Part shown: one piece after another, positions 1,703 to 63,688 of the stretch
Position numbering within the stretch: the first letter of the stretch is position 1
Layout of the letters: each line of letters begins with the position of its first letter
NCBI RefSeq assembly: GCF_015277895.1
Contig: NZ_CP063815.1
Location: forward strand, 1,116,001-1,180,000
Reading direction: 5' to 3'
Source: Microbacterium abyssi
GTDB lineage: Bacteria; Actinomycetota; Actinomycetes; Actinomycetales; Microbacteriaceae
DNA: 64,000 bases
Program-made: the position numbers and the translations under genes
Notes under the pieces: generated by a model
What the model was told of the DNA's origin: nothing
Seen by the model: the letters and a program-made list of their open reading frames with translations, nothing else
The model's database searches: none

Positions 1703-3466
1703 TCAGCTGATGGTCAGCAGCTGGTGACCGGCCGCGACAGTGCTCCCGGCATCCGCGTTGATGTTGCCGATGACGCCGTCCTTGTGCGCCTGCATCGGCT
1801 GCTCCATCTTCATCGCCTCGAGCACCACCACGAGGTCGCCCTTGACGACCTGCTGGCCCTCCTCGACGGCGATCTTGACGACGGTGGCCTGCATCGGCGA
1901 CTTCACGGCGTCGCCGGAGGCTCCGGCCGAGGCTGTGGTGGCGTGGCTGCGGCGCGACGGCGGGACGGCGGCGGGGCGGCCGGCTGTGCCGGCGGCGACC
2001 GTCACGCGATCGGGCAGGCTCACCTCGAGGCGCTTGCCTGCGACCTCGACGACGACCGTGTGCCGGCTCTCGGCGGCGGTGGGCGACTCCAGTTCGCCGT
2101 CCCAGGCCGGGATGTCGTTGTCGAACTCGGTCTCGATCCAGCGGGTGTAGACGCCGAACTCGCCGCTCTCGGCGGTGAACGCGGCATCCCGAACGACCTT
2201 GCGGTGGAACGGCAGGACGGTCGGGAGCCCGGCGACCTCGAACTCGTCGAGAGCGCGGCGGGCGCGCTCCAGCGCCTCCTCGCGGCTCTTGCCCGTGACG
2301 ATGATCTTCGCCAGCAGCGAGTCGAAGGCGCCGGAGACCGAGTCGCCGGCGGTGACGCCCGAATCGAGTCGGATGCCGGGACCGCCGAAGGTCTTGAAGA
2401 CGTGGATGGGGCCGGGCTGGGGGAGGAAACCGCGACCCGGGTCCTCGCCGTTGATGCGGAACTCGAACGAGTGACCGCTCGGGGTCGGGTCGTCGTAGTC
2501 GATGGTGCCGCCCGCGGCGATGCGGAACTGCTCGCGCACCAGGTCGATGCCGGTGATCTCCTCGGAGACCGGATGCTCGACCTGCAGGCGGGTGTTGACC
2601 TCGAGGAACGACACGGTGCCGTCGGCGCCGATGAGGAACTCGCAGGTGCCGGCGCCCACGTAGCCGACCTCCTTGAGGATCGCCTTGGACGCCGCGTACA
2701 GCTGGCGGTTCTGCTCCTCGGTGAGGAACGGCGCCGGCGCCTCTTCGACGAGCTTCTGGTGGCGGCGCTGCAGCGAGCAGTCGCGCGTCGAGATGACGAC
2801 GACGTTGCCTTCGGCATCCGCCAGACACTGGGTCTCGACGTGACGCGGCTTGTCGAGATACTTCTCGACGAAGCACTCACCGCGGCCGAAGGCGGCGACG
2901 GCCTCACGGGTGGCCGACTCGAACTGCTCCGCGACCTCGTCGAGCTCGCGGGCGACCTTCAGGCCTCGTCCGCCGCCGCCGTACGCGGCCTTGATCGCGA
3001 TCGGCAGGCCGTGCTCCTTCGCGAACGCGATGACCTCGTCGGCTGTCTCGACAGGGCCCGGAGTGCCGGGGGCGAGCGGCGCGCCGACCTTCTCGGCGAC
3101 GTGGCGGGCGGTGACCTTGTCGCCGAGTGACTCGATGGCGTCGGGTGACGGGCCGATCCAGGTGATGCCGGCGGCGATCACGGCACGGGCGAAATCGGCG
3201 TTCTCGGCGAGGAAGCCGTAGCCGGGGTGCACGGCGTCGGCACCGGAGCGACGGGCGATCGAGAGGATCTTCTCGATCTGCAGGTAGGTGGTCGCGCTCG
3301 TCTCGCCGCCGAGAGCGTATGCCTCGTCCGCGAGCCTCGTGTGCAGCGCGTCGCGGTCCTGGTCTGCGTAGACGGCGACCGAGGAGATCCCGGAATCGCG
3401 AGCGGCACGGATGATGCGTACGGCGATCTCTCCGCGGTTGGCGATGAGCACCTTCTCGATGGGCAT
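1703..3466 (-). CDS. accA3: acyl-CoA carboxylase biotinylated alpha subunit (biotin carboxylase + BCCP)
   Basis: This subunit carboxylates its own biotin with ATP and bicarbonate and passes the carboxyl group to a beta subunit, feeding malonyl-CoA and methylmalonyl-CoA to lipid synthesis. The 587-residue protein starts [20 protein letters not shown], the typical biotin carboxylase N-terminus. The ATP-grasp domain follows (glycine-rich loop YGGGGRGLK), then the C-terminal domain (EFRINGEDP). A biotinyl domain closes the protein with EAMKM and acceptor Lys553. A longer frame runs upstream, but ATG 3466 fits the family N-terminus and has a TAGGCT hexamer at 3479-3474, 7 bases away, implying a leaderless transcript. 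Its likely partners AccD and AccE lie at 12982-14780. The length is close to that of mycobacterial AccA3. Confidence 0.95.
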
Positions 3467-3544
3467 GAGTGCCAGCCTAGCGAGATCGGACGCGATCCTT
3501 TTGAGCACTCTCCACAAGAAATCCTCGAAAACGTCGCGGAATGT

Positions 3545-4186
3545 CTACGACCACAGATCCGTCCACGGCACGTCGAGCTGCCGTGCCAGGCGACGGATGG
3601 TCGACAGCGACATGCCTACGACCGTGGAGGGGTCGCCGTCGACTCGCGTGATGAACGCGCCGCCGAGGCTGTCGACGGTGAACGCGCCGGCGACGTGAAG
3701 CGGTTCGCCGCTGGCGACGTACGCGGCGATCTCCTCGTCGGTGATGTCATCCGCGAAGGTCACGGACGCTTCGGCGACGGCGGTCGCCTCGCGCGGCTCG
3801 TGCCCGGGCTGCAGCCGGAAGACGGAGTGGCCGGAATGCAGGATGCCGGTCGCACCGCGCATGTCGCGCCAGCGCCTGGTCGCCTCCTCAGCTGTGTACG
3901 GCTTGCCGTAGACGCGGCCACCGAGGGCGAACATCGAGTCGCCGCCGATCACGATGCCGTCGAATGCCGGTTCATCGGCCGCGACCCGGACCGCGACATC
4001 GGCGGCCTTGGCACGGGCGAGCAGCAGCACGAGCTCGTCCGGTGGAAGATCGCCGCCGCGTTCGGTGGCAGCCTGGGCGGTCACGGCATCCTCGTCGGTC
4101 TCGGGGGCGCGCGTGAGCGGTTCGATGCCCGCCTGTCGCAGCAGCATCAGGCGGGCAGGCGAAGTGGAGGCGAGACAGACCTGCAT
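3545..4186 (-). CDS. maf: Maf-family nucleoside triphosphate pyrophosphatase
   Basis: The 213-residue protein starts MQVCLASTSPARLMLLRQAG, the Maf signature S(T)SP.R..LL. It continues with GGDSMFALGGRVYGKP, matching the conserved D and the G.(V/I).GKP segment. Maf proteins hydrolyse non-canonical or modified (d)NTPs to monophosphates and are linked to septum control in some bacteria. ATG 4186 was chosen over a much longer upstream frame because homologs begin here and because TACGGT at 4198-4193 lies 6 bases away. It sits next to the biotinylated carboxylase gene, as in other actinobacteria where maf lies between accE and accA3. Confidence 0.93.
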   Translation of the reverse strand: MQVCLASTSPARLMLLRQAGIEPLTRAPETDEDAVTAQAATERGGDLPPDELVLLLARAKAADVAVRVAADEPAFDGIVIGGDSMFALGGRVYGKPYTAEEATRRWRDMRGATGILHSGHSVFRLQPGHEPREATAVAEASVTFADDITDEEIAAYVASGEPLHVAGAFTVDSLGGAFITRVDGDPSTVVGMSLSTIRRLARQLDVPWTDLWS

Positions 4187-4225
4187 GACTCCACCGTATC
4201 GTCGCGCGAACCGTATCCTCGAAGG

Positions 4226-5425
4226 ATGGCCTCTTCCGCATCCGCACTGCTCGACCTCGATATCACCGGCATCGCGCACGGCGGCACGTTCATCGCTCGC
4301 CACGAGGGCCGAGTGGTGTTCGTCTCGGACGCCATCCCCGGCGAGCGCGTGCGCGCGCGCATCACGGACGACGCGAAGGCATCGTTCTGGCGCGCCGAGA
4401 CCGTCGAGGTGCTGGATGCCTCCCCGCACCGCCGCCCGCACGTGTGGCCGGAGGCGGACGTCTCCCTGGACCCGGACGAGCGGGCCGGCGGTGCCGACCT
4501 CGGTCACATCGACCTCGACCACCAGCGCGTCCTGAAGCGCCAGGTGCTCGACGAGGCGCTCGACAAGTTCGCCGGCGGCGGTCTGGAAGCTCCGGAAGTG
4601 GCCGCCGTCGACGACTCCGACGGCACCGGGTGGCGCACGCGCGTCTCGCTGCACGTCGACGCCGAGGGCGTCGTCGGGCCCTACGCTGCCCGCAGCCACC
4701 GAGTGATCCCGGTCCGGTCGCTGCCGCTCGCGCGACCACGCGTCGCCGCCGAGGCGCTGTCGCTGCGGAACGCCAAGCAGGGGCGCATCGATCTGGTCGA
4801 GTCGGCGGACGGCGAGGTGCACGTGCTGCGGCGTCCGGAGCGCGGCAAGCGCCCCGCCGCGCGGGTGATCTCCGAGCGGGTGGGCGAGCGCTCGTTCCGG
4901 GTGGACGCCGACGGCTTCTGGCAGGTGCATCCGCACGCGGCATCCACTCTGGACGCGGCCGTGCGCGCGGCGCTCGCCGGCCGGGTCGACCCGGAGGCCA
5001 CGCATCTCGACCTCTACGGCGGCGTCGGGCTGCTGGCATCCTCGCTCGCCGCGGCGGGCGCCACCGACATCGTCACGGTCGAGTCCAGCCGGGCTGCTAC
5101 CGCTCACGCGCAGGAGAACCTCGCCGACCTCGACGCGACCGCAGTGACGGCGCGGGTCGACCGCTACCTCGCGGGGCTCCCGGACGGAGCGCGGGCCGGT
5201 GCCGTCGTTCTCGACCCACCGCGCGCGGGCGCCGGGCGCGCGGTGGTCGAAGGTGTCCATGCCCTCCAACCGGATGCCGTCGTCTACGTGGCCTGCGACC
5301 CCGTGGCCCTGGCGCGAGACCTCGCAACATTCCGCGGTCTCGGCTGGGAAGTGGGCTCGCTCCAGGCGTTCGACCTGTTCCCGCACTCGCACCACATCGA
5401 GGCCGTCGCGCTGCTGACCCGTTGA
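4226..5425 (+). CDS. TrmA/RumA-like class I SAM-dependent RNA methyltransferase
   Basis: The 399-residue protein has an N-terminal TRAM-like beta-barrel (about 1-60, with GIAHGGTFIARHEGRVVFV and PGERVRARI). A Rossmann methyltransferase domain follows, with LDLYGGVGLLASSLAAAGA as the SAM-binding motif, LDPPRAGAG as motif IV, and YVACDP carrying the expected catalytic cysteine of RNA m5U methyltransferases. The four-cysteine iron-sulphur motif of RlmD is not visible. The probable reaction is 5-methylation of uridine in tRNA or rRNA; the exact target cannot be read from sequence. TATCCT at 4214-4219 ends 6 bases before ATG, and no Shine-Dalgarno sequence is apparent. Confidence 0.88.
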   Translation: MASSASALLDLDITGIAHGGTFIARHEGRVVFVSDAIPGERVRARITDDAKASFWRAETVEVLDASPHRRPHVWPEADVSLDPDERAGGADLGHIDLDHQRVLKRQVLDEALDKFAGGGLEAPEVAAVDDSDGTGWRTRVSLHVDAEGVVGPYAARSHRVIPVRSLPLARPRVAAEALSLRNAKQGRIDLVESADGEVHVLRRPERGKRPAARVISERVGERSFRVDADGFWQVHPHAASTLDAAVRAALAGRVDPEATHLDLYGGVGLLASSLAAAGATDIVTVESSRAATAHAQENLADLDATAVTARVDRYLAGLPDGARAGAVVLDPPRAGAGRAVVEGVHALQPDAVVYVACDPVALARDLATFRGLGWEVGSLQAFDLFPHSHHIEAVALLTR

Positions 5426-5453
5426 ATCCTCAGCAGATCGATAGGCTGAGCAC

Positions 5454-6116
5454 ATGAGCACTGTCGCGTTCATCGACGATCACGAGTCCGTCCGGCTGGG
5501 ACTGGAACTCGCGTGCGAGCGCGCCGGCGAGGGGACCGTCGTCTTCTCGGGCAGCACGGTCGGCTCCTACCTCGACTGGCGGGCGACGCCAGGATCGAGG
5601 CCCGCCGATGTGGTGGTGCTCGATCTGACCCTGGGCGATGGGACGACCGTCACCGAGAACGTGACAGCTCTCGTCGCCGACGGCGCGAGTGTGGTCATAC
5701 ACAGCGTCGCCGACCGTCCCGCCGCGGTGCGTGAGGCCCTCGCGGCCGGCGCAGCCGGAGTGGTGAGCAAGTCCTCCGCCCTCGACGATGTGGTCGACGC
5801 GATCCGCACCGTCGCGCGCGGCGACGCCCTCAACAACGTGGAATGGGCCAGCGCCGTCGAAGGCGACAGGGAGTTCGCCGACGCGCAGCTGTCGGTGCGG
5901 GAGCGCGACGTGCTGCGCCTGTATGCGGCGGGCCTCCCGCTGAAGGCCGTCGCAGAGCGGCTCGGCGTCGCGTACTCCACGGCCAAGGAGAACATCACGC
6001 GCGTACGGGTGAAGTACGTCGAGGTGGGCCGCCCGGCGCCCACGAAGGTCGACCTGCTCCGCCGGGCCATGGAAGACGGCATCGTCTCCCCCGACGGGGC
6101 GACGAGTGTCGGCTGA
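5454..6116 (+). CDS. NarL/FixJ-type response regulator
   Basis: The 220-residue protein has a receiver domain with acidic pair DD (IDDHESVRLGLE), phosphoacceptor Asp57 in VVVLDLTLGD, and the KS switch region (VVSKSS). A LuxR-type helix-turn-helix sits at the C-terminus (LSVRERDVLRLYAAGLPLKAVAERLGVAY). It should be phosphorylated by the kinase encoded immediately downstream, whose GTG overlaps this gene's 3' end by 11 bases. TAGGCT at 5442-5447 ends 6 bases before ATG, so the transcript is probably leaderless. Targets are unknown. Confidence 0.92.
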   Translation: MSTVAFIDDHESVRLGLELACERAGEGTVVFSGSTVGSYLDWRATPGSRPADVVVLDLTLGDGTTVTENVTALVADGASVVIHSVADRPAAVREALAAGAAGVVSKSSALDDVVDAIRTVARGDALNNVEWASAVEGDREFADAQLSVRERDVLRLYAAGLPLKAVAERLGVAYSTAKENITRVRVKYVEVGRPAPTKVDLLRRAMEDGIVSPDGATSVG

Positions 6117-8348: not shown

Positions 8349-8353
8349 GAGAG

Positions 8354-8386
8354 GGCGAGGGGCGGCGAAGCCGCCCGCCCCTCGCC
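8354..8386 (+). terminator. GC-rich stem-loop after the two-component operon
   Basis: GGCGAGGGGC (8354-8363) pairs with GCCCCTCGCC (8377-8386), and GGC/GCC pairs continue inside with a short bulge. It starts 6 bases after the stop codon at 8348. No T-tract is present. Confidence 0.65.
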
Positions 8387-8545
8387 GGATGCGGTGAAGT
8401 TACCCGAAAACCCACCGCCGGAGATCGATCACCGTCTGCCTACCCTGGGGCAGAGAGACCGATCGAACGCGAAGCGTCGACTACAGTCTGACCGAGCCTC
8501 AGGAGGTTTGTCTGTAGGTATTTCGGGGGACACGGATTCGCGTGA
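8387..8545. other. upstream region of the ROK regulator gene
   Basis: There is no gene here. A TACAGT hexamer at 8482-8487 could be a -10 element, giving a leader of about 50-70 bases. A strong AGGAGG at 8501-8506 is followed by no ATG or GTG at ribosome-binding distance, so its role is unclear. No riboswitch-like fold was recognised. Confidence 0.3.
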
Positions 8546-9799: not shown

Positions 9800-9811
9800 G
9801 GACGAGAGGTC

Positions 9812-9872: not shown

Positions 9873-12800
9873 ATGCACGACACAGCCGCACTCACTGAAG
9901 CCCGAGTTCGACGCTTCATCACCGAGCGGTTGCGACCGAATGTGCACCGGGACCTCACGCCAGCTGCTCTGGCGAGTTGGGAAGTGCCGGGGGAGCCGGT
10001 ACCGTTCACCGAAGCTGTGGGTCAGGTCTACGAGCGTTTCGTCGTGGGGACGAGATGGGGGAGGCCGTGGGGGACGACATGGCTGAAGCTGCGGGGAACG
10101 GTACCGGACGCGCCCGGTGCCGAACTGCTGTTCGACCTCGGATTCAACGCCTCCGAGCCGGGATTTCAGGCCGAGGGCACCGTCTACCGCCGTGATGGTT
10201 CGATCGTCAAGGCAGTCGAGCCGCGCAACGCGCATGTGCCGCTCGAAGGAGAGCCGGGCGAGGAGTTCGAGCTCTACCTGGAAGCCGCGGCGAATCCCGA
10301 TGTCGCCGACGGATTCCGCGACTTCCGGCCCACGCCGCTCGGGGCGCTCGACACCGCGGGCGACGAGCCGCTGTACGAGTTCCGGCAGGCCGACATCGCC
10401 GTCAGGGACGTCGAGGTCTGGGAACTGCTGCAGGATGCGGTCGTGCTGTTCGAGCTCATGATGGAGCTGCCTCAGACCGCGCCGCGACGCGCCGAGATCC
10501 TGCGAGCCCTCGAGCGCATGGTCGACGCAACCGATCCTGACGACGTCGCCGGCACGGCGTCGGACGCGCGGACCGAACTCGCCGAGGTGCTCGCGAGCCC
10601 GGCATCCGGCTCGGCGCACCGCGTGCACGCGGTCGGTCACGCCCACATCGATTCGGCCTGGCTGTGGCCGGTGCGCGAGACGCAGCGCAAGGTCGCGCGG
10701 ACGTTCTCGAACGTGCTGTCGCTGCAACAGGAGACGGACTTCGTGTTCGCCGCGTCGTCCGCCCAGCAGTACGCCTGGCTCAAGAAGTACCAGCCGGAGC
10801 TGTTCTCGCGGGTGCGGGAGGCCGTGGCATCGGGCCGGTTCATCCCCGCCGGCGGGATGTGGGTCGAATCCGACACGAACATGCCGGGCGGTGAGGCGCT
10901 GGCGCGACAGTTCGTCCGGGGCAAGCGCTTCTTCATGACGGAGTTCGGCATCGAGCCGCTGGATGTCTGGCTGCCCGACTCCTTCGGCTACTCCGCGGCG
11001 CTGCCGCAGATCGCGCGCGCCGCCGGGTCGCGCTGGATGCTGACGCAGAAGATGTCGTGGAACGAGACGAATCGGATGCCGCACCACACGTTCCTGTGGG
11101 AGGGAATCGACGGGACGCGGATCTTCACGCACTTCCCGCCCGTGGACACCTACAGTGCGCGACTGAGTGGCGCGGAGCTCGCTCATGCCGAGCAGCGGTA
11201 CGCCGAGAAGGGCGCCGCGAACACCTCTCTCGTGCCGTTCGGACACGGCGACGGCGGGGGCGGCCCGAACCGCGAGATGGTAGCCGCAGCGCAGCGACTG
11301 CGCTCGCTGGAGGGCTCGCCGACTGTGACGCTGTCGAGCCCCGCGCAGTTCTTCGAGGCCGCCGAGGCGGAATACGATCGTCCGCCGGTGTGGTCGGGGG
11401 AGATGTACCTCGAGTTCCACCGCGGAACGTACACGTCGCAGGCGCGCACCAAGCGCGGCAACCGCCGCAGCGAGCACGCTCTGCGCGAGGCCGAGTTGTG
11501 GGCGACAGCGGCGGCGCTGCGCGGGGCCGCATACCCCTACGACGAGCTCGAAACGCTATGGGAGACGGTGCTGCTGCAGCAGTTCCACGACATCCTGCCT
11601 GGCAGCTCGATCGGCTGGGTGCACCGAGAGGCTGAGCGTCGGTACGACGAGGTTCTCGCCGCGGTCGAGCAGCTCACGACCCGCGCACTCGGAGAACTCG
11701 TCGGTGACGGTACGAGCGCGCTTGCCGCGAACGCGGGGCCGTACGGTCAATGCGGGACGGCCGCGATGGGCGTCTCCGTCGTCACACCGGCGTCGGAGGC
11801 TCCCGCCGCCGTGATCCGCACGCGGCGCGGGTTCGAACTGACCAACGAGCACCTGTCGGTGCAGCTCGACGAGGCAGGCCTGGTGAGCTCTCTCGTCGTT
11901 CGCGCAACAGGGCGCGAAGCGATCGCACCCGGGCTGGAGGGGAACCTCCTGCAACTGCATCGCGATACGCCGACGCGGTGGGACGCGTGGGACATCGATG
12001 AGCACTATCGTCGTCATGTCGTCGACCTGACCGATGTGGAATCCATCGACCACGTCCCTCATCCCACCGCCGCAGTCGTCTGCGTGGTCCGCAGCCGGGG
12101 GGCAACGCGGATCACGCAGACCTTGACGCTCGGGGCGGGCTCACGGGCCCTCGAGATCGAGACGGCCGTGGACTGGCACGAGCGGCAGAAGCTGCTGAAA
12201 CTCGCGTTCCCGCTCGACGTGCACGCGGATCGTGCGAGCTCGGAGATCCAGTTCGGCCACGTGCAGCGCCCGACGCATGCCAACACGTCGTGGGACATGG
12301 CGCGCTTCGAGACGGTCGCACACCGGTGGGTGCACGTGGGCGAGACCGGGTTCGGCGTCGCGATCGCGAACGACTCCACTTACGGACATGACATCACGCG
12401 CGGGACCCGAGATTGCGGCGGGACGATCACGAACGTGCGCCTGTCGCTGTTGCGGGCGCCCCTGTACCCGGACCCCGAGGCTGATCAGGGCGAGCACACG
12501 TTCCGGGTCAGCATCCGTCCCGATTCGTCGGTCGCGGATGCCGTGCGCGAGGGGTACCGACTGAACCTGCCCGTGCGTGAGATGGTCGGCGCGGGCCCGG
12601 TGGAGCCTCTCGTGACGGTGTCGTCGGATGCCGTGGTGGTCGAAGCCGTCAAGCTCGCGGAGGATCGCGGCGGTGATGTGATCGTGCGACTCTACGAGGC
12701 GCACGGAGGTCGGGCCGCCGCGACGGTGTCGACCTCATTCGCGTTCGACGACGTGATCGAGACAGACCTGCTTGAACGCGAGGTGGATGCCGCGACGGTC

Positions 12801-12981: not shown

Positions 12982-13197
12982 TCAGCCCGAGAACCGCCCC
13001 CACGGGATGTCTCGGCGCAGCGGCTTGCGCAGCGGACGCTGAGTCCGCTGCCATGCTGAGACACGCGGCTCTTCGGCGACGGCATCCGCAGCTTCCCGCC
13101 CGTAGGCGTCCGTGACCACCGCGATAAGGGCGGCGAGCTCCTCCTCGTCCGCAGTGCCGCGGACGATCCGGAGTCCGGGAGTGGGCTGATCGATCAC
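12982..13197 (-). CDS. accE: acyl-CoA carboxylase epsilon subunit
   Basis: A 71-residue protein with the family pattern: an N-terminal [20 protein letters not shown] and a C-terminal basic, tryptophan-containing tail ([19 protein letters not shown]). Actinobacterial epsilon subunits bind the alpha and beta subunits and stimulate the carboxylase. Its ATG at 13197 overlaps the beta subunit stop as ATGA, so translation is coupled. Confidence 0.9.
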
Positions 13198-14780
13198 AGC
13201 GGGATGTTCCCGTGCTTCTTCGGGGGCAGCTCCGCACGCTTGCCGCGCAGGGAGCGCAGCGCCTTCGCGATCGAGACGCGCGTGTTGGCCGGTTCGATCA
13301 CGCCGTCGATCTCACCGCGCTCGGCGGCGAGGAACGGCGAGGTGACGCTGTAGGTGTACTCGTTGGCGAGGCGGGTGCGGACGGCGGCGACATCCTCGCC
13401 GGCCTCCTCGGCGCGCTTGATCTCGTTGCGGTACAGGATGTTGACGGCGCCCTGCCCACCCATGACCGCGACCTCTGCGGTGGGCCAGGCGAGGTTGACG
13501 TCGGCGCCGAGCTGCTTGGAGCCCATCACGATATACGCGCCGCCGTACGCTTTGCGCAGAATCACCGTGACCAGCGGAACCGTCGCCTCGGCATAGGCGT
13601 AGATGAGCTTGGCGCCGCGGCGGATCACGCCGGTCCACTCCTGGTCGGTTCCGGGCAGGTAGCCCGGCACGTCGACGAGAGTGACGATCGGGATCGAGAA
13701 CGCGTCGCAGAAGCGCACGAAGCGGCTGGCCTTCTCGCCGGCCTCGATGTTCAGCGTGCCTGCCATCTGCGAGGGCTGGTTCGCGATGATGCCGACCGAG
13801 CGGCCCTCGATGCGACCGAAGCCGACGACGATGTTCGGGGCGAACAGCGGCTGCACCTCGAGGAAGTCATCGTCGATCACGTGGTCGATGACCGTGTGGA
13901 TGTCGTAGGGCTGGTTCGCGGAGTCGGGGATGATCGTGTTCAGTGTGCGATCGGCATCCGTGGTCTCCCACTCGAAGTCGCTCTCGTAACCCGGGATCTC
14001 CGCCATGTTGTTGTCCGGCAGGAAGCCGAGCAGAGTGCGGGCGTAGTCGAGCGCGTCGTCTTCGTCCTCGGCCAGGTAATGGGCGACGCCGGAGCGCGTG
14101 TTGTGGGTGAGAGCGCCGCCGAGCTCCTCCATGCCGACATCCTCGCCCGTGACGGTCTTGATGACGTCGGGGCCGGTGACGAACATCTGGCTGGTCTTGT
14201 CGACCATGATCACGAAGTCGGTGAGCGCCGGGCCGTAGACGGCGCCGCCGGCGGCCGGGCCCATGATGATCGAGATCTGCGGGATGACGCCGGAGGATCG
14301 GGTGTTCAGACGGAAGATCTCGCCGTACTTGCTGAGCGCGAGCACGCCCTCCTGGATGCGGGCGCCGCCGGAGTCGAGGATGCCGATGATGGGCATGCCG
14401 CTGGTGAGGGCGAACTCCATGATCTTGATGATCTTGTCGCCGGCGACCTCGCCGAGCGAGCCGCCGAACGTGGTGAAGTCCTGCGAGTAGACGGCGACGG
14501 TGCGACCGTGGATCGTGCCGATGCCGGTGACGACGGAGTCGCCGTAGGGACGATTGCGGTCCATTCCGAACGACGTGGTGCGATGGCGGACGTACTCGTC
14601 GAATTCGACGAAGCTGCCGGAGTCGACGAGCAGCTCGATGCGCTCGCGGGCCGTCATCTTGCCCTTGGCGTGCTGCTTCTCCCGCGCGATCTTCTCGGGC
14701 TCGGTGACCGCCTCATCGAAGCGGGAGCGGAGGTCGGCTATCTTGCCGGCGGTCGTGGAGAGGTCAGGGATGTCCGTCAC
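13194..14780 (-). CDS. accD: acyl-CoA (propionyl/acetyl-CoA) carboxylase beta subunit
   Basis: This carboxyltransferase moves the carboxyl group from biotin to acetyl- or propionyl-CoA. The 528-residue protein shows the two crotonase-like halves of the family: [17 protein letters not shown] and [10 protein letters not shown] with [16 protein letters not shown] in the N half, and [13 protein letters not shown] and [14 protein letters not shown] in the C half. It is most like the actinobacterial AccD5/PccB group. I chose GTG 14780 (VTDIPDLST) over an upstream ATG because of homolog length and TAGGGT at 14793-14788, 7 bases upstream. It forms an operon with accE. Confidence 0.94.
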
Positions 14781-14892
14781 GGATTCCACCCTAGTAGCGG
14801 TGCGACCTGCGGCGTTGGATGCCTCGCACAACGGAGGGCGGGTTCCTTTGGCGGTTCGCGCGCGGTCGGCTCAGGCCCTCGTATTCCAATTT

Positions 14893-16661: not shown

Positions 16662-16964
16662 TCACACGACGAACCTCCAGACGTACTCGAGCCCGTCAGC
16701 GGGGCGGAACCACGCGATCGTGACGACCACGTCATCCACTTCAGCGGCGCACAGACACAGTTCGATGTCTTCCGAGGGCAGAACTTGACCCCACAGCTGC
16801 GTCCTCTCGCCGCTCCGGTCGTCACGGAAGACGCGCACGAAGTCGGCGCTCTCCGCACTGCCGTTGACGAGGACGGGATGGCGGGGATCCGTGCGACGGA
16901 CGAACCACGGCACGCGATACGCGACGGGCGGAGGAGTCTCGGACGGATCGATGGGGCGCAGCAT
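16662..16964 (-). CDS. small conserved hypothetical protein
   Basis: A 100-residue protein beginning MLRPIDPSETPPPVAYRVPW, rich in aromatic residues, with no membrane segment. I do not recognise a domain. An upstream in-frame GTG (16973) exists, but TACCGT at 16977-16972 ends 7 bases before ATG 16964, which fits the leaderless pattern of this window and favours the shorter form. It stands alone between aceA (convergent) and the next minus-strand gene. Confidence 0.6.
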   Translation of the reverse strand: MLRPIDPSETPPPVAYRVPWFVRRTDPRHPVLVNGSAESADFVRVFRDDRSGERTQLWGQVLPSEDIELCLCAAEVDDVVVTIAWFRPADGLEYVWRFVV

Positions 16965-17039
16965 GCGTGCCACGGTAGGAACGACCGCCGACGCCCGGCA
17001 GCGGCTCTCGGGAACGTACTCGCGAACAGGGGAGAAGCG

Positions 17040-17984
17040 TCAGGAATCCGTGTCTGTGGAGGCCGAGTCGAGCTCGCGCTCCTTGCGCCGCACCCGCGTC
17101 ACCTCGCCGACCTTGTGCCCGACCCAGCCTGCGCCGCGGGCGACCGTGCCGGCGGCTCCGGCGACTGCGGTTCCGGCATAGCGCGCCCCACGCAGCATCC
17201 GCATCTCGAACTTCTGCGTGCCGTCGACCGGCTCGAGGTCAGGGGGCAGCACCGCCGGTGCCACGCCGAAGGCGCGACGAGAGGTCGTCAGCACGCGCCG
17301 CCCGAGCAGGTGATTTCCTGCGCCGCCGACCGCGGCGCCGATGCCGAACGGCATCGCCTTGCCGACGAACGACGCACCGCCGGCCGTGGCGAAGTGCTTG
17401 ACGAAACGGGACTTGAGCTGGTCGACGACCGGCCCGACGGCGGCGCGGGGGAGCGACTTCGTCACGAGCTCTCCCCAGTAGGACGAGCGGGTCGATCCCT
17501 TCCCGGTCACCTGCTTCGCGAGCTGGCCCACGAGATCGACGCCCTCCTTGCCGAGCATCAGCGTCATGACAAGGGCGCGCGCGCGATCGGGGTTCTCCAC
17601 CGCGATGCCGTGCACCTCGGCCAGCGACTGCGCGAACAGCGCCGTGGACTCCAGGAACCCGAGGGTCTCGATGCCCGACAACGCCAGCGTCACCCCGGTT
17701 CCGATACCGGGCACGACGGCGGTCGCGCCTACGGCGGCACCGCCGGTCGTGACGGCGGCCAGATACCGGCGTTCCAGGATGCGCACGAGCTGGTCGGGTG
17801 CGGCACTCGGATTGCGCAGGCGGATGCTGCGGATGTGCGCGAGCACCAGCGGACGCTGGATGGACAGCACCCTGTCGAGGCCCCGCACGGTGAGCGGATG
17901 CTCGTCCGAGCCGACAGGGGGCACTCCCTTGTCCCAGGCGGAGTCGTCGGGGAGGGAGTGGATCTTGTGCACCTTCTTGGCCAT
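17040..17984 (-). CDS. conserved hypothetical protein, EcsC-like in layout
   Basis: The 314-residue protein has a polar N-terminus (MAKKVHKIHSLPDD), a helical region, and an Ala/Gly-rich hydrophobic segment (about 75-115: TTGGAAVGATAVVPGIGTGV). Further amphipathic Gly/Ala segments and a highly charged tail follow. The hydrophobic core with a PGIGT turn recalls EcsC-family proteins, but I am not certain. TAGGAT at 17997-17992 lies 7 bases from ATG, suggesting leaderless transcription. No partner gene is evident. Confidence 0.55.
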   Translation of the reverse strand: MAKKVHKIHSLPDDSAWDKGVPPVGSDEHPLTVRGLDRVLSIQRPLVLAHIRSIRLRNPSAAPDQLVRILERRYLAAVTTGGAAVGATAVVPGIGTGVTLALSGIETLGFLESTALFAQSLAEVHGIAVENPDRARALVMTLMLGKEGVDLVGQLAKQVTGKGSTRSSYWGELVTKSLPRAAVGPVVDQLKSRFVKHFATAGGASFVGKAMPFGIGAAVGGAGNHLLGRRVLTTSRRAFGVAPAVLPPDLEPVDGTQKFEMRMLRGARYAGTAVAGAAGTVARGAGWVGHKVGEVTRVRRKERELDSASTDTDS

Positions 17985-18020
17985 CAGGACGATCCTAGAT
18001 TCCGCGTCCGGGAGAAGGCA

Positions 18021-22087: not shown

Positions 22088-22127
22088 GACCGCCCCGCAG
22101 CGTCCGGCGGACGGATAGACTCGGCGC

Positions 22128-22394
22128 ATGAGTACTCCGCTGGACAGCCCCGATCAGGGCGGCGTGGCAACGCTTGATCGTGAACTGGAAGAACTTCTCA
22201 AGGAAGAGAATGTCGAGCCTGGCGACCACGAGCGCTTCTCGCACTACGTGAAGAAGGACAAGATCCTCGAGTCCGCGATCACCGGTAAGCCGGTGCGTGC
22301 GCTGTGCGGGAAGAAATGGACCCCGGGCCGCGACCCGGAGAAATTCCCGATCTGCCCCACCTGCAAGGAGATCTACGAGTCGATGGTCAGCTAG
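22128..22394 (+). CDS. DUF3039 small protein with putative zinc knuckle
   Basis: An 88-residue actinobacterial protein matching DUF3039: an acidic N-half (LDRELEELLKEENVEPGDHERFSHY), then ALCGKKWTPGRDPEKFPICPTCKEIY, whose three cysteines and nearby histidine may bind zinc. Its function is unknown. TAGACT at 22116-22121 ends 6 bases before ATG with no Shine-Dalgarno, a clear leaderless arrangement. It converges on pncB with 5 bases between stops. Confidence 0.88.
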   Translation: MSTPLDSPDQGGVATLDRELEELLKEENVEPGDHERFSHYVKKDKILESAITGKPVRALCGKKWTPGRDPEKFPICPTCKEIYESMVS

Positions 22395-23725: not shown

Positions 23726-23785
23726 GCGCTCAGCTTACTGTCGGGCTTCGATCCTCCCGTCTCGCGAAGGGTAGGCTGGTGATCC

Positions 23786-26021: not shown

Positions 26022-26077
26022 CTTCCCGACTAGCCGAAACGGCCTCCGACGGCCGGTTCCGCTCGTAGCCTGGATAC

Positions 26078-29365: not shown

Positions 29366-29425
29366 GTCGCCAGAGTAACGGCAAGCCCCTGTCGCTCGAC
29401 GGTCATTGCGGTGTCTACTGGTGTC

Positions 29426-36958: not shown

Positions 36959-36964
36959 ACGCTA
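36959..36964 (-). promoter_or_regulatory. -10 hexamer deciding the MFS gene start
   Basis: TAGCGT read on the minus strand ends 7 bases before GTG 36951. This matches the spacing at more than 20 other genes in the window and favours GTG 36951 over the upstream in-frame starts. Confidence 0.5.
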
Positions 36965-37030
36965 CTCCGGATCGAGCCGTCGACCCGCAGGACCGCATCT
37001 CCCAGCTGATCCGCGATAGGCTGAGTCGTC

Positions 37031-38140: not shown

Positions 38141-38197
38141 CAGCCTCCGGGTGTCGCTCGCGGCCAGGCGCGTACCCGCGCTTAGGCTCATAAGGCC

Positions 38198-42495: not shown

Positions 42496-42522
42496 GGCTC
42501 GAGCCTATGCCGGGATCTCTGA

Positions 42523-47364: not shown

Positions 47365-47370
47365 TAGCAT
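47365..47370 (+). promoter_or_regulatory. -10 hexamer deciding the hisC start
   Basis: TAGCAT ends 7 bases before GTG 47378. The ATG at 47369 overlaps this hexamer, so GTG 47378 is the better start. Confidence 0.55.
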
Positions 47371-47377: not shown

Positions 47378-48463
47378 GTGACTGCTTCCCTCGGCGACCT
47401 GCCCCTCCGCGACGATCTTCGCGGGCTCACACCTTACGGCGCACCGCAGGCTCCGCTGCCGATTGCGCTCAACGTCAACGAGAACACGCACGCGGTTCCC
47501 GACGAGGTCGCCAGCGACATCCTCGACGACATCGCCGTCGCCCTCCGTGGAGTGAACCGCTACCCCGACCGCGAGTTCACGACACTGCGTGAGGGGTTCG
47601 CCGCCTATCTCGGCCACGGACTGGAGCCCGAGCAGATCTGGGCCGGCAACGGCTCCAACGAAGTCCTGCAGCACATCATGCAGGCGTTCGGCGGTCCCGG
47701 ACGCACCGTGTTCGGCTTCGCGCCCACCTATTCGATGTACCCCCTCATCGCGCAGGGGACCGGGGCCCGATGGGTCGCCGGTGAGCGCGAGCCCGACTAC
47801 ACGATCACCGCGGAGGAGGCGGCCGCGCAGGTCGAGCGTGCCGACGCCGACATCGTCATGCTGTGCTCGCCGAACAACCCGACAGGCACCCCGCTCGGGC
47901 TCGACATCGTCGAGGCCGTCTATGAGGCTGCTCGTGGCATCGTCGTCGTAGACGAGGCGTACCAGGAGTTCGCGCCGCGGGATGCGGCATCCGCCCTCAC
48001 GCTGTTGGACGGGCGCCCGCGCCTGGCCGTCTCGCGCACGATGAGCAAGGCGTTCGCGTTCGCCGGCGCGCGCGTGGGCTATCTCGCTGCCGATCCGGCG
48101 TTCATCGACGCACTGCGCCTCGTGCGGCTGCCGTACCACCTCAGCGCGCTGACGCAGGCAGCTGCCATCGCGGCGCTGCGCAACGCCGACATCATGCTCG
48201 GCATGGTCGACGAGATCATCGCGCAGCGCGATCGCATCACGGCGACGCTCGAGGCTCTCGGCTACCAGCCTCACGAGTCGTGGTCGAACTTCGTGCTGTT
48301 CGGCGGCGTCGCCGATCCTCGAGCGACATTCGAAGCGCTGTACGAGCGCGGCATCCTCGTGCGTGACGTCGGCATTCCGAACCACCTGCGGGTCACGGCG
48401 GGCACGGAGGCGGAGACGACGGCGTTCCTGGATGCGCTGGCCTCGATAGAATCGGCCTCATGA
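47378..48463 (+). CDS. hisC: histidinol-phosphate aminotransferase
   Basis: A PLP enzyme of histidine synthesis that converts imidazole acetol phosphate to histidinol phosphate. The 361-residue protein has the N-terminal [54 protein letters not shown] and PLP Lys224 in [17 protein letters not shown]. The start GTG 47378 is supported by a leaderless -10. It heads hisC-hisB-hisH-hisA; hisD, hisF, hisG and hisI are outside the window. Confidence 0.95.
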
Positions 48464-49691: not shown

Positions 49692-49780
49692 TGACCACGA
49701 CGTTTTGAACCCTGCACGGAGGCGGACTAGTGTCGGGTCTCGTGCCCGCTCTCGGCGCACTCCACACACCCGAGGATGAC

Positions 49781-53347: not shown

Positions 53348-53767
53348 TCACGGCCTGAGTGCCGCGCGACGTCGCAGTGACCGAGAGATCAGGGCGTCCA
53401 GCAGCATCACGAAGACGACGGCGAACGCATAGACGAGAAGATCGCGCCGGTCGAAGCCCGATCCCACCACGAGCACGGCCGGCGGAAACAGTCCCGTCAT
53501 CCTCGCGGGCGCGTCGGTGAGCTGCAGAAGCTCGATCACGCTGCAGAAGACGATCGCCAGCGCCGCGCACAGCGAGCGTGCGCGCCGCGGCAGTATGAAG
53601 GCGACTACGAGGTAGATGAGCGTCGCGTAGAGCGCGTCGCCGGCCACATCGCCGAGGATGCCGGAGCCGAACCGATGCACGCAGAGCCCTGCCGCGACGG
53701 TCAGCACGGCGAGACAGGCGACGGTGATCCGACGCCTGGTGGCTGATCGCGCGGAAATGGACGGCAC
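53348..53767 (-). CDS. DUF2809 membrane protein
   Basis: The 139-residue protein has about four membrane helices with the family pattern [18 protein letters not shown] and [10 protein letters not shown], plus [19 protein letters not shown] near the end. The family's function is unknown. The start is GTG 53767; TAGAGT at 53779-53774 ends 6 bases before it. The basic C-terminus ([11 protein letters not shown]) should be cytoplasmic. Confidence 0.8.
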
Positions 53768-53865
53768 GCCGGGACTCTATTCGGGAAGACTGCGTGATCG
53801 CCCCATGTAGGCCACCGGTTGAACGCGCTCCGGGATCCATCCCGGTATCCCTCTAGACTGAAACC

Positions 53866-54678
53866 GTGCTGGAGAATCCGCGGTCGCCGCGTGTCAGAGC
53901 CGTCGCGAAGCTGACGAAGCGCAGCGCGCGGACGGACACCGGGTTGTTCCTGCTCGAGGGTCCGCAGGCTGTTCGCGAGGCGCTATCGTACCGTCCGGAT
54001 GCCGTCGTCGAACTGTTCGCGACGCCGACGGGGTGGGAGAAGCATCCGGATCTGCGTGCTGCCGCCACCGCGCGCGGCGTGGACTTCGAGTTCGTCACAG
54101 AGTACGTACTGGGCGCCATGGCCGATACGGTCACCCCGCAGGGCGTGATCGCCGTCGCCCGTCAGATCCCGACCTCCGTGCGCGACATCTTCGCGGCGTC
54201 CCCGCGTCTCATCGCGATCTGCGAGGAGGTGCGCGATCCGGGGAACCTCGGGACGATCATCAGGGCCGCGGATGCCGCCGGCGCCGATGCCGTCGTCCTC
54301 ACCGGCCGCACGGTCGACCCGTACAACCCCAAGGTGGTTCGCTCGACGACGGGCTCGCTGTTCCACCTGCCTGTCTCGGTCGGAGGGGACCTTGAGGACG
54401 TGGTGCGGCGCGCGCATGCGGCAGGGATCACCGTGCTCGCTGCGGACGTGAAGGGCGACGATCTTCTGCAGGCCCGGGCGGATGGCATCCTGTCCCAGCC
54501 CACGGCGTGGCTGTTCGGCAACGAGGCGCACGGGCTCGAGCAGAGTTCCCTGGATCTCGCCGACCACGTGCTGAAACTGCCGATCTTCGGACGCGCAGAA
54601 TCCCTCAACCTCGCCACGGCGGCGAGCGTCTGCCTCTACGAGAGCGCCTTCACCCAGCGCGCCGTCGACGGCCGGTGA
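53866..54678 (+). CDS. TrmH/SpoU-family RNA 2'-O-methyltransferase
   Basis: The 270-residue protein has an N-terminal SpoU substrate-binding domain (about 5-100) and a knotted SPOUT domain with EEVRDPGNLGTIIRAADAAGAD, WLFGNEAHGLEQ and LPIFGRAESLNLATAASVCLYE. It should methylate a ribose in rRNA or tRNA; TsnR- or RlmB-like enzymes are commonly coded here, after rplT. The start is GTG 53866 with TAGACT (53854-53859) 6 bases upstream, so it is leaderless. A small inverted repeat CCGGGAT-CC-ATCCCGG (53830-53845) lies upstream. Confidence 0.93.
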   Translation: MLENPRSPRVRAVAKLTKRSARTDTGLFLLEGPQAVREALSYRPDAVVELFATPTGWEKHPDLRAAATARGVDFEFVTEYVLGAMADTVTPQGVIAVARQIPTSVRDIFAASPRLIAICEEVRDPGNLGTIIRAADAAGADAVVLTGRTVDPYNPKVVRSTTGSLFHLPVSVGGDLEDVVRRAHAAGITVLAADVKGDDLLQARADGILSQPTAWLFGNEAHGLEQSSLDLADHVLKLPIFGRAESLNLATAASVCLYESAFTQRAVDGR

Positions 54679-54690
54679 CGGCGCCCGCTC

Positions 54691-54708: not shown

Positions 54709-54758
54709 CGCGGGTGTGGATGCTGGTTCCCGGCGCGCTGTGCTTCTAGTGTGGGCAC

Positions 54759-55508
54759 ATGACCGAGACTGGCGCACCCCTTGTCGTGGTGGAGAACGTT
54801 CAGAAGCACTACGGCGAGTTCCAGGCCCTGGCCGATATTGACCTGACAGTGCACAGAGGTGAGGTCGTCGTCGTGATCGGGCCGTCCGGGTCGGGCAAGT
54901 CGACGCTGTGCCGCACCATCAACCGCCTCGAGACGATCACCAGCGGATCGATCACGATCGACGGCAAGGAGCTGCCGGCCGAAGGCAAAGAGCTCGCTCA
55001 CCTGCGCGCCGACGTCGGGATGGTCTTCCAGTCGTTCAACCTCTTCGCCCACCTCACGATCCTCGAGAACGTGACCCTGGGCCCCATCAAGGTGCGCGGG
55101 CTGAAGAAGGCGGATGCCGACAGAGAGGCGATGGCGCTCCTCGAGCGCGTCGGCGTCGCACAGCAGGCGTCGAAGCTGCCCGCGCAGCTCTCCGGCGGCC
55201 AGCAGCAGCGCGTCGCGATCGCGCGCGCTCTCGCGATGCAGCCCAAGGTCATGCTCTTCGACGAGCCGACCAGCGCGCTCGATCCCGAGATGATCAACGA
55301 GGTCCTCGACGTCATGGTGCAGCTCGCCAAGGAGGGCATGACGATGATCGTCGTCACCCACGAGATGGGCTTCGCCCGCAAGGCGGCGAACCGCGTGGTG
55401 TTCATGGCGGACGGCAGGATCGTCGAAGAGGCGACCCCGGAGGAGTTCTTCACGAACCCGAAGAGCGACCGCGCCAAGGACTTCCTCTCGAAGCTCCTCA
55501 CCCACTGA
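54759..55508 (+). CDS. gluA: glutamate/polar amino acid ABC transporter ATPase
   Basis: The 249-residue protein has Walker [11 protein letters not shown]-loop [12 protein letters not shown], signature [15 protein letters not shown], Walker [15 protein letters not shown] and the switch His in VTHEMGFA. This subfamily (GlnQ/GluA) powers polar amino acid uptake. TAGTGT (54747-54752) ends 6 bases before ATG. It is the first gene of gluABCD. Confidence 0.95.
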
Positions 55509-58094: not shown

Positions 58095-58124
58095 GTCGCA
58101 GCGGCGCCGGTAGACTCATGTCTT

Positions 58125-59165
58125 GTGTCTGACGCCCCCGAAATCACGCCCGAGGCGGTGGAATCCGCCGTCGCAGCAGCGCTCGAAGCGATCGGCGCCG
58201 CCGCCACAACCGCCGAGTTGAAAGCGGCCCGCGCCGCGCACGTCGCCGAAGGGTCGCCGCTCGCGGTCCTGAACGCATCGATGCGCCAGGTCGCCCCGGA
58301 GCACAAGGCGACCTTCGGCAAGCTCGTCGGCCAGGGCCGCGGACGCGTCACTCAGGCGCTGACGGCGAAAGAGGCCGAGCTCGCCGAGGCGGAGCTGTCC
58401 GCGCGCCTCGAAGAGGAGCGCATCGACATCACGGCCGTCTCCACGCGCACGCGCGTCGGCGCACGGCATCCGCTCATGCAGCTCCAGGACGACATCTCCG
58501 ACGTCTTCGTCGGCATGGGCTGGGAGATCGCCGAGGGGCCTGAGCTCGAGCACGAGTGGTTCAACTTCGACGCGCTCAACTTCGACGTCGATCACCCGGC
58601 GCGGCAGATGCAGGACACGTTCTTCGTCGACCCCACCGACCGCCACCTCGTCATGCGCACGCACACGAGCCCCGTCCAGGTGCGCTCGATGCTCGACCGC
58701 GAGGTCCCGATCTACGTGCTGTGTCCCGGCCGGGTCTACCGCACCGACGAGTTCGACGCGACGCACCTGCCGGTCTTCACCCAGGTCGAGGGCCTCGTCG
58801 TAGACAGGGGCATCACCATGGCGCACTTGAAGGGCACGCTGGACCACCTCGCCAAGCAGCTCTTCGGCGAAGAGGCGAAGACGCGCCTGCGGACGAACTT
58901 CTTCCCGTTCACCGAGCCGTCCGCCGAGTTCGACCTCTGGCACCCGACGTTCAAGGGTGGTGCGCGCTGGATCGAGTGGGGCGGCTGCGGAATGGTCAAC
59001 CCCAACGTGCTGCGCGCGGCGGGGATCGATCCGGAGGTGTACAGCGGCTTCGCGTTCGGCATCGGCGTCGAGCGCGGTCTGATGTTCCGCTCCGACGTGC
59101 AGGACATGCGCGACATGGCAGAGGGCGATATCCGTTTCAGCGAGCAGTTCGGGATGGTGGTGTGA
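58125..59165 (+). CDS. pheS: phenylalanyl-tRNA synthetase alpha subunit
   Basis: The 346-residue catalytic subunit has an N-terminal coiled coil (about 1-90), then class II motifs: HPLMQLQDDISDVFVGMGWE, the RTHTSPVQVRSM region (motif 2-like) and GIGVERGLMFRSDVQDMRDM (motif 3). The start is GTG 58125 with TAGACT (58111-58116) 8 bases upstream; there is no terminator between gluD and this gene. Its stop overlaps pheT by one base. Confidence 0.97.
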   Translation: MSDAPEITPEAVESAVAAALEAIGAAATTAELKAARAAHVAEGSPLAVLNASMRQVAPEHKATFGKLVGQGRGRVTQALTAKEAELAEAELSARLEEERIDITAVSTRTRVGARHPLMQLQDDISDVFVGMGWEIAEGPELEHEWFNFDALNFDVDHPARQMQDTFFVDPTDRHLVMRTHTSPVQVRSMLDREVPIYVLCPGRVYRTDEFDATHLPVFTQVEGLVVDRGITMAHLKGTLDHLAKQLFGEEAKTRLRTNFFPFTEPSAEFDLWHPTFKGGARWIEWGGCGMVNPNVLRAAGIDPEVYSGFAFGIGVERGLMFRSDVQDMRDMAEGDIRFSEQFGMVV

Positions 59166-61660: not shown

Positions 61661-61663
61661 TTC

Positions 61664-61693
61664 CCCGTTGCCCGTGCGCGCACGGGCAACGGG
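61664..61693. terminator. bidirectional terminator between pheT and the EEP gene
   Basis: A perfect 30-bp palindrome with arms CCCGTTGCCCGTGCG and its complement lies 3 bases after the pheT stop and 23 bases after the convergent EEP gene's stop. There is no loop or T-tract; the transcript can form a hairpin with a small terminal loop. Confidence 0.85.
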
Positions 61694-61716
61694 CGCGGCT
61701 GGCCGGTGCGGCGGCG

Positions 61717-62733
61717 TCAGCCGGCGGGCTCGAGCTGCACCACGAGCGCGCGGTGGTCGGAGCCGGCGGCATCCAGGACCAGCGAGCCGGTCGGCTCCCA
61801 GTTCTGACTCGCCATGACGTGGTCGATCGGCGCGCCGACGATCTCGGGGTACGACGCCGGCCAGGTGCCGGTGACGCCTGTTCCGGTGCGCGCGGCCGCA
61901 TCGCGGCAGTAGCCGATGTCTCCGCCGCCGACCCCGAGCCCCGCCATGTGGTCGAGGGTCGAGTTGAAGTCTCCGGCCAGGATGAAGTCGCCCTCCGGGC
62001 ACTGGTCGGCGATCCATTTCAGATCGGACTGCCAACGCTGCATCGCCTCGATGCGCGGTGCGACCGCGTGGACGGCGACGATCGTGGGACCGGTGCCGTT
62101 CACCGGCATCACGACGGCGCTGGGAACAGAGCTGGTGTTGCTGCTGCCGTCCTCCGATGACGCGATCACCGAGTAGTCGCCGAGCTCGGGAGAGATGAGG
62201 ATCGTGGTCTCCCAGGCCTGCGGACCGTTCTCGACATCGCCGAACTGCACGTGGTGGACCCACATCGGCTGCCCCTGCTCACGCAGCATGACGGCGATGC
62301 GCTCGCCGACCGACTCAGCCGTCTCCGGCAGCGTGACGACATCGGCCTGCTGGGTGAGGATCTCATCGGCCACAGTCTCGGCCGGTACCGCTTCTCCGGC
62401 GGTGTTCCAGGTCAGCACGCGGACGCTCTCATCGGTCTTCTCCGGCAGGGCGCCGGAACCGAATCCACGCATCGCCCCGATCGCCCCGGTCGCGGCTGCC
62501 GCCAGCAGCGCGACGATGAGGATGGATGCCGCGAACCCGCGCAGCGGGCGCACGAACAGCAGCAGTAGGGATAGGAGCGCGATCACCAGGAACGCGGCGA
62601 GGACGAGGCCGCGCACGGCCACGAGCTGCGCGAACGGGTACGTCTGCTCGAGCTGGAAGAACTGCGGCCACACCACGACCGCCGACGCGATTGCGAACAG
62701 CACTGTGATGAGGATTCCCAGCAGACGAAACAT
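61717..62733 (-). CDS. membrane-anchored endonuclease/exonuclease/phosphatase family protein
   Basis: The 338-residue protein has about three N-terminal membrane helices (about 4-22, 33-60 and 65-90), then an EEP domain (about 103-338) with VRVLTWNTAGEAV, DVVTLPETAE (the usual metal-binding Glu), AGDFNSTLDHM and SDHRALVVQ. The catalytic domain is probably outside the membrane. The substrate is unknown (nuclease or phosphodiesterase). ATG 62733 has TAGGCT (62747-62742) 8 bases upstream; the longer frame is rejected. Confidence 0.88.
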   Translation of the reverse strand: MFRLLGILITVLFAIASAVVVWPQFFQLEQTYPFAQLVAVRGLVLAAFLVIALLSLLLLFVRPLRGFAASILIVALLAAAATGAIGAMRGFGSGALPEKTDESVRVLTWNTAGEAVPAETVADEILTQQADVVTLPETAESVGERIAVMLREQGQPMWVHHVQFGDVENGPQAWETTILISPELGDYSVIASSEDGSSNTSSVPSAVVMPVNGTGPTIVAVHAVAPRIEAMQRWQSDLKWIADQCPEGDFILAGDFNSTLDHMAGLGVGGGDIGYCRDAAARTGTGVTGTWPASYPEIVGAPIDHVMASQNWEPTGSLVLDAAGSDHRALVVQLEPAG

Positions 62734-62818
62734 CCCTTCGAGCCTAGATGCGCACGCTGTGAATCGCCTGCCGCGACGCCTCCGTGCCGCCGTGTTCTCG
62801 CGGCAGTAATGTCGAGGC

Positions 62819-63688
62819 ATGACCGATGTGCAGACCTTCGCGGGGCCCGCCGACCTGCACCTGCACTCCAATCACTCCGACGGCACCGAGAATCCGGGGC
62901 AGGTGGTCCGTCAGGCGCATGCCCACGGCATCCGCACGCTTGCGCTCACCGACCACGACCGCACGACCGGCTGGGACGAGGCGGGACATGCGGCGGCGTC
63001 GCTCGGCATGACGTTCATCCCGGGGATGGAGCTGTCCGCCAAGCACCAGTGGCGCAGCGTCCATGTGCTCGGATACCTCTTCGACCCCGAGAACGCGGCG
63101 CTGCGCGCCGAAACCGGCCGCATCCGCAACGACCGGGTCGGTCGCGCCGAGCGCATCGTGCGCAACATCGGGCGAGACTACGCGCTGAGCTGGGCGGACG
63201 TGCTGGAGCAGACCACGACGGATGCCACGGTCGGAAGGCCGCACATCGCCGATGCCCTGATCGCCCGCGGCATCGTCCGCGATCGCTCGGAAGCGTTCGA
63301 CGGCATCCTGCATCCGCGCGAGGGGTACTACGAGCCGCACTACGCGCCGGATCCGCTCACGGCCGTGCGGCTGATCACACAGGCCGGGGGAGTCGCGGTG
63401 ATCGCACACCCCGTCACCTCGGGCCGCGACCGCATGATGCCGCTCGCATTCATCGAGGAACTCATCGCCGCAGGTCTCGGCGGTCTCGAGATCGATCATC
63501 GCGAGAACACCGAGGCAGGCAAGCGCACGCTGCGTGGTCTCGCCGCGAAGCACGACCTCATCGTGACGGGGTCGAGCGACTACCACGGCGCGGGCAAGCC
63601 CAATCTTCCCGGCGAGAACACGACGTCGGAGGAGATGGTCGCGCGGATCATCTCGCAGGCGTCGGGGACGAGCCCCCGGTACCCGTAG
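62819..63688 (+). CDS. PHP-domain phosphatase (TrpH/YciV type)
   Basis: The 289-residue protein has the metal sites DLHLHSNHSDG, LTDHDRTTGWDEA, PGMELSAKH, VIAHPVT and the C-terminal SSDYHGAGKP. Enzymes of this group remove phosphates from nucleoside 3',5'-bisphosphates or trim RNA 5' ends. TAATGT at 62807-62812 ends 6 bases before ATG. It is divergent from the EEP gene and convergent with the protein at the right edge. Confidence 0.92.
   Translation: MTDVQTFAGPADLHLHSNHSDGTENPGQVVRQAHAHGIRTLALTDHDRTTGWDEAGHAAASLGMTFIPGMELSAKHQWRSVHVLGYLFDPENAALRAETGRIRNDRVGRAERIVRNIGRDYALSWADVLEQTTTDATVGRPHIADALIARGIVRDRSEAFDGILHPREGYYEPHYAPDPLTAVRLITQAGGVAVIAHPVTSGRDRMMPLAFIEELIAAGLGGLEIDHRENTEAGKRTLRGLAAKHDLIVTGSSDYHGAGKPNLPGENTTSEEMVARIISQASGTSPRYP

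Follow-up and report, generated by a model that had tools for sequence, protein, structure and literature searches.

A hexamer of the form TAnnnT stands 6 to 9 bases before the start codon of 23 genes in a 64,000-nucleotide stretch of the Microbacterium abyssi genome (contig NZ_CP063815.1, positions 1,116,001 to 1,180,000; hereafter the window, numbered from its first base). The best explanation, to which we give a probability of about 0.92, is that these hexamers are −10-only promoters producing leaderless mRNAs. Judged from the sequence, roughly one in five of the sampled genes of this genome probably has a transcript that begins right at the protein start. The hexamer would be the −10 element of a housekeeping-type promoter, presumably sigma-A-like, and transcription would start on the start codon's first base or up to about 3 bases ahead of it. 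The mRNAs would then lack both a true 5′ leader and a Shine-Dalgarno sequence, and ribosomes would start on their 5′ ends as on other leaderless messages. Sigma-A would read the hexamer, and actinobacterial factors such as RbpA and CarD would compensate for the missing −35 element. The signature is already known for the phylum, and is confirmed here in one more genome.

Genes were called by coding potential alone, so that their start positions are independent of the motif. The gap is defined as the number of bases between the hexamer and the start codon; a gap of 6–9 places the hexamer 12–15 bases upstream. A first sample comprised the window and 20 stretches, from which 399 of 415 called genes were used and 16 near stretch ends were dropped. 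The larger sample covered 864 kb with 758 called genes, 26% of the genome (3,267,287 bases in a single contig). When the start was free to shift within 90 bases, 158 of the 758 genes (21%) had TAnnnT at gap 6–9. Six other distances used as controls gave 7, 17, 18, 10, 22 and 24 genes, indicating a background of roughly 2%. The gaps of the 158 signature genes have a sharp peak at 6–7, being 6 in 96, 7 in 46, 8 in 11 and 9 in 5. With the starts fixed by coding potential the hexamer was present in 111 of 747 genes (11 having been dropped for short upstream sequence), compared with 7.9 (standard deviation 2.75, maximum 15) in 200 dinucleotide shuffles. The enrichment over shuffled sequence proposed as a check on the first, sequence-only reading of the window is found in this sample of about a quarter of the genome. 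In the window alone the fixed starts gave 15 of 58, against 0.71 in shuffles (maximum 4 in 500).

In the first sample, 55 of the 237 genes leading a unit have TAnnnT 12–15 bases upstream, whereas 4-base windows farther up average 5.1. It also precedes 20 of 162 genes closely behind a gene on the same strand, against 0.1 farther upstream. The claim that genes inside operons lack the hexamer was therefore too strong, although it is indeed rarer there. The variants AT...T and TA...C showed no peak at that distance in this sample. Among in-frame codons, the hexamer stands at that distance before 68 of 494 ATG, 37 of 635 GTG and 3 of 78 TTG, while each of seven non-start codons has it in 0.2–2.3% of cases (from 2/1056 for GCG to 2/87 for ATT).

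The sites in the window are as follows, with the number of orthologs that keep the hexamer. All 23 pairs of hexamer and start are present as first described. Domain names are Pfam matches, and two of the genes have none.

3474..3479, minus strand: TAGGCT, gap 7, gene 1703-3466, biotin carboxylase/biotin carrier; orthologs 6/6.
4193..4198, minus strand: TACGGT, gap 6, gene 3545-4186, Maf; orthologs 4/5.
4214..4219, plus strand: TATCCT, gap 6, gene 4226-5425, TRAM/RNA methyltransferase; orthologs 3/4.
5442..5447, plus strand: TAGGCT, gap 6, gene 5454-6116, response regulator; orthologs 5/6.
14788..14793, minus strand: TAGGGT, gap 7, gene 13194-14780, carboxyltransferase; orthologs 23/23.
16972..16977, minus strand: TACCGT, gap 7, gene 16662-16964, no Pfam match; orthologs 6/6.
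17992..17997, minus strand: TAGGAT, gap 7, gene 17040-17984, no Pfam match; orthologs 16/23.
22116..22121, plus strand: TAGACT, gap 6, gene 22128-22394, DUF3039; orthologs 24/24.
23732..23737, minus strand: TAAGCT, gap 6, gene 22400-23725, NAPRTase; orthologs 24/24.
23772..23777, plus strand: TAGGCT, gap 8, gene 23786-24655, Asp/Glu racemase family; orthologs 24/24, with gap 8 in 22.
26066..26071, plus strand: TAGCCT, gap 6, gene 26078-26989, cation efflux.
29372..29377, minus strand: TACTCT, gap 6, gene 26996-29365, LigD; orthologs 10/11.
36959..36964, minus strand: TAGCGT, gap 7, gene 35689-36951, MFS; orthologs 20/20.
37017..37022, plus strand: TAGGCT, gap 8, gene 37031-38140, peptide chain release factor, which we take to be prfB; orthologs in the genus 20/20.
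38183..38188, plus strand: TAGGCT, gap 9, gene 38198-39169, ABC ATPase, presumably ftsE by its position; orthologs 18/18, all with gap 9.
42502..42507, minus strand: TAGGCT, gap 6, gene 40633-42495, S9 peptidase; orthologs 10/10, only 1 at the same start.
47365..47370, plus strand: TAGCAT, gap 7, gene 47378-48463, aminotransferase; orthologs 13/13.
53774..53779, minus strand: TAGAGT, gap 6, gene 53348-53767, DUF2809; orthologs 3/3.
53854..53859, plus strand: TAGACT, gap 6, gene 53866-54678, SpoU RNA methyltransferase; orthologs 20/20, all with gap 6.
54747..54752, plus strand: TAGTGT, gap 6, gene 54759-55508, ABC ATPase; orthologs 14/20.
58111..58116, plus strand: TAGACT, gap 8, gene 58125-59165, phenylalanyl-tRNA synthetase alpha (pheS); orthologs 20/20, all with gap 8.
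62741..62746, minus strand: TAGGCT, gap 7, gene 61717-62733, Exo_endo_phos; orthologs 24/24.
62807..62812, plus strand: TAATGT, gap 6, gene 62819-63688, PHP domain; orthologs 23/24, 11 of them at the same start.

The gene at 4226 is divergent from the Maf gene (start 4186), with 39 bp between the two starts. The gene caller misses two of the listed short genes, those at 22128 and 53767. Three window starts outside the list, at 19008, 48460 and 49742, also have TAnnnT at gap 6–8, possibly by chance.

Conservation was examined in two sets of orthologs. Set 1 covers 14 genes and was drawn from stretches of 20 other Microbacterium genomes and from six named loci obtained by a Maf search, five from Microbacterium (84–91% identity) and one from Clavibacter (55%), so that one Clavibacter locus is included. 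Orthologs were excluded from set 1 if the alignment started after residue 25, the locus end was too near, identity was <45% or, for proteins of <600 amino acids, less than half of the query was covered. Set 2 covers eight further genes from four additional searches, with exclusion at identity <40%; the gene at 26078 is the only listed gene outside both sets. A match required TAnnnT at gap 6–9 before the aligned start or another start no more than 12 codons from it. As controls we chose 19 and then four genes that lie in operons or have Shine-Dalgarno sequences; two of the last four were without orthologs.

Across the 22 of 23 genes examined, 330 of the 348 ortholog instances keep the hexamer; for the 21 control genes the figure is 7 of 313. 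The orthologs are related species rather than independent trials, and one genome supplies two loci for 62733/62819. By set, the counts are 166/176 against 7/270 (19 controls) in set 1, and 164/172 against 0/43 (two controls) in set 2. If only matches at the same start are counted (131 of the 166 in set 1 and 136 of the 164 in set 2), the figures are 267/348 against 1/313. In the alignments the hexamer, the discriminator and the start are conserved, while the bases around and upstream of the hexamer drift. Three locus sets each comprised the best-scoring 29 loci besides that of M. abyssi, taken from 59, 60 and 39 genomes. The prfB hexamer was found at gap 6–9 in 54 of 58 loci, nearly all of which belong to different genera within the family and order; the remaining four show a hexamer at gap 10 by eye.

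The orthologs also bear on four starts that had been moved to fit the pattern. The corrected start at 14780 is upheld by 23/23 orthologs, 21 at the same start, and that at 47378 by 13/13, nine at the same start. For 16964 all six alignable orthologs, out of 23 loci, keep the hexamer, four at the same start. For 36951 the hexamer is kept in 20/20, but only eight are at the same start, the others lying within 10 codons of it. Conservation is weaker for 17984 and 54759, and for 42495 only in the position of the start.

The form of the element is that of a promoter. Alignment of 100 signature genes from the first sample gives the consensus T-A-G-n-C-T-G-(G/A), corresponding to a −10 box followed by a G/purine discriminator. 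We asked if the TAG bias could come from an in-frame TAG stop and rejected this source, as G occupies the third position as often with gap 7, which puts TAG out of frame (20/29), as with gap 6 (35/62). No −35 element was detected in a scan that scored TTGAC-like words only: at least 4/5 matches at spacers of 15–19 occurred in 12 of 158 genes and, at control spacers, in 11, 4, 5 and 6 of them. Nor is there an extended −10 (TGn), T and G not being enriched at those positions in the 100 signature genes. A Shine-Dalgarno word of at least four bases is absent from 86 of the 100, compared with 148 of 283 other genes; 13 of the remainder have a 4-mer and one has a 5-mer. A background scan 45 bases farther upstream found 237/280 without such a word. 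Such words are few in signature genes; the original reading of the window saw none between hexamer and start. The pattern of widespread leaderless genes proposed on that reading is supported by position, enrichment, ortholog conservation, the lack of a TTGAC-like −35 and the scarcity of Shine-Dalgarno words, and points to probable transcription from the start codon.

Where exactly the RNAs would begin depends on the gap. Gaps of 6–7 account for 142 of the 158 signature genes, and with the usual spacing from a −10 element to the transcription start site (TSS) they would put the TSS on the start codon or a single base ahead of it. The earlier placement of the TSS at or next to the start codon is supported for these genes, but those with gap 8–9 (16/158) may carry 2–3-nucleotide leaders instead of none. 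We consider it unlikely that most of the sites are promoters of mRNAs with very short leaders of 1–5 nucleotides rather than exactly leaderless ones. The gap-8/9 genes fit such leaders; every one of the 18 orthologs of 38198 has G-(C/T)-C directly before the ATG, and the 15 gap-8 orthologs of 37031 mostly have G-(T/C)-C there. Set against this are the predominance of gaps of 6–7 and the restricted occurrence of the trinucleotide: just 6 of the 24 orthologs of 23786, another gap-8 gene, have it. A general G-Y-C leader of gap-8/9 genes was dropped on the latter count. The sequences before 38198 and 37031 may nevertheless be a 3-nucleotide leader class.

A role of the hexamer as a translation signal within the mRNA, rather than as a promoter element, is very improbable. 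Its fixed distance from the start codon and the few Shine-Dalgarno words in signature genes would suit such a role. However, the shape is that of a −10 box with its discriminator, and the distance of 12–13 matches that from a −10 to a TSS. Moreover closely following genes, which mRNA can reach from upstream, have the hexamer at about half the rate of first genes (20/162 against 55/237), and it is commoner at divergent starts (85/234, against 158/758 overall, with movable starts). That the hexamers are chance occurrences picked by eye is refuted, for although some starts had originally been shifted to match the pattern, motif-independent starts still give 111/747 against 7.9 and orthologs keep the hexamer.

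Some observations weigh against the interpretation as −10-only promoters of leaderless genes. In the same orthologs the control distances and the TA...C motif are not empty, giving 3, 13 and 5 of 176 in set 1 and 4, 3 and 3 of 172 in set 2. The control gene at 49730 was matched in 7 of 16 orthologs and is the source of all seven control matches. The hexamer is absent from 7 of 23 orthologs of 17984 and from 6 of 20 of 54759. The gap is strictly kept at 38198 (gap 9 in 18/18) and 58125 (gap 8 in 20/20), which short leaders would fit equally. A pyrimidine-purine initiator was considered as added proof and rejected as unspecific, since C occupies −1 in 55/100 signature genes and in 143/283 other starts.

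The signature is concentrated at closely spaced divergent genes. Both sides are signed in 19 of 38 divergent pairs separated by <100 bp, against 1 of 79 pairs at 100 bp or more, where the distances depend on the chosen start (free to shift 90 bases toward the hexamer). In part this clustering is expected: leaderless genes do not require a leader, and the start positions were free to approach a hexamer. The tightest doubly signed pair lies outside the window:

1012626-1012647 of the genome (L148 1479-1500): 22 bp between the divergent starts 1,012,625 and 1,012,648 of pmt/rsmI, named from Pfam (PMT domains on one side, TP_methylase and RsmI_C on the other).

These 22 bp comprise a core of 10 bases, within which one TA is common to both hexamers, flanked on each side by a gap of 6 bases. 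Among 30 Microbacterium loci (M. abyssi included) 16 have the shared core, checked in each, with starts 22–23 bp apart. Nine have two separate hexamers 35–62 bp apart, and in five, one of them at a contig end, a close second signal was not found. The core was not seen in 28 loci outside the genus, where the rsmI start was recognized by a hexamer in only three; this absence is weak because the rsmI start is poorly fixed there. A deep age of the core was a candidate that we dropped, given that it was not seen outside the genus. A second case is the divergent prfB/MFS pair. Its starts are 79 bp apart in the window, and in 7 of 20 species (L062-L068, near 9975-10027) there is a shared core with starts 25–26 bp apart. 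The opposed −10 elements overlap, sharing the TA, in all 16 + 7 compact pairs, whose starts are 22–26 bp apart.

These pairs resemble minimal promoters that would serve two leaderless genes in opposite directions. It seems to us rather probable that the 22–26 bp between the divergent genes are a 10-bp symmetric core, ANNNTANNNT, and two short gaps, the single TA serving as −12/−11 of two opposed −10-only promoters whose RNAs start on or next to the start codons. Such a control region would be nearly the minimum possible for two genes. It would have been retained by selection (16/30 for pmt/rsmI) and would admit a single polymerase at once, making the two genes competitors or coupling them. A further pair of very closely spaced divergent genes, at L010 17996-18015 (18 bp as called), has a signature on its minus-strand gene only, with gap 6.

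The outcome for Microbacterium is a well-supported list of probable leaderless genes, together with corrected starts. The divergent pairs at 22–26 bp offer small natural systems in which to study bidirectional initiation and competition between polymerases. A search of open-access literature at the level of listings found no leaderless or TSS study of Microbacterium, and in titles and the beginnings of abstracts we found no description of leaderless genes combined with a bidirectional or divergent promoter. The shared-core pairs are the only part that a specialist might find new.

Zheng 2011 (PMC3160421) predicted TA-led (leaderless) genes in Actinobacteria, with TANNNT about 12 bp before the start in >20% of genes of the phylum and little information in the three middle bases. 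The motif, distance and share in Microbacterium agree with that account. Our data differ in mildly favoring G as the third and C as the fifth base, and add ortholog footprinting and one more genus. For Mycobacterium tuberculosis, Cortes 2013 (PMC3898074) reports mapped TSSs with TANNNT, no conserved −35 and mostly purine starts. Leaderless genes are given there as 22% of those expressed in exponential phase and 26% of those with a primary TSS; of the 14 tRNA synthetase genes that have a primary TSS, 7 are leaderless. The same study states that closely juxtaposed divergent promoters are common, with one divergent pair in which both genes are leaderless, and that leaderless genes gain under starvation (PMC3898074). 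Leaderless genes are further reported to escape some antibiotics. Microbacterium resembles M. tuberculosis in TANNNT, in the lack of a conserved −35 and in the predicted leaderless share. It differs in belonging to another family of the phylum and in being known here from DNA alone, where M. tuberculosis has a mapped transcriptome.

The compact pairs may be compared with the bidirectional promoters of Escherichia coli, in which, according to Warman et al. (PMC12825309), opposite TSSs flank a shared symmetric −10, most commonly 18 bp apart and commonly also 10 and 23 bp. If both RNAs start on their start codons, the 22-bp pmt/rsmI pair with gaps 6/6 would give a TSS distance of 23 bp, matching one of those classes; the value is exact only for a 6/6 pair. 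Unlike the promoters described there, both predicted Microbacterium starts lie at or next to start codons, and the core promoter would thus fill the whole intergenic gap.

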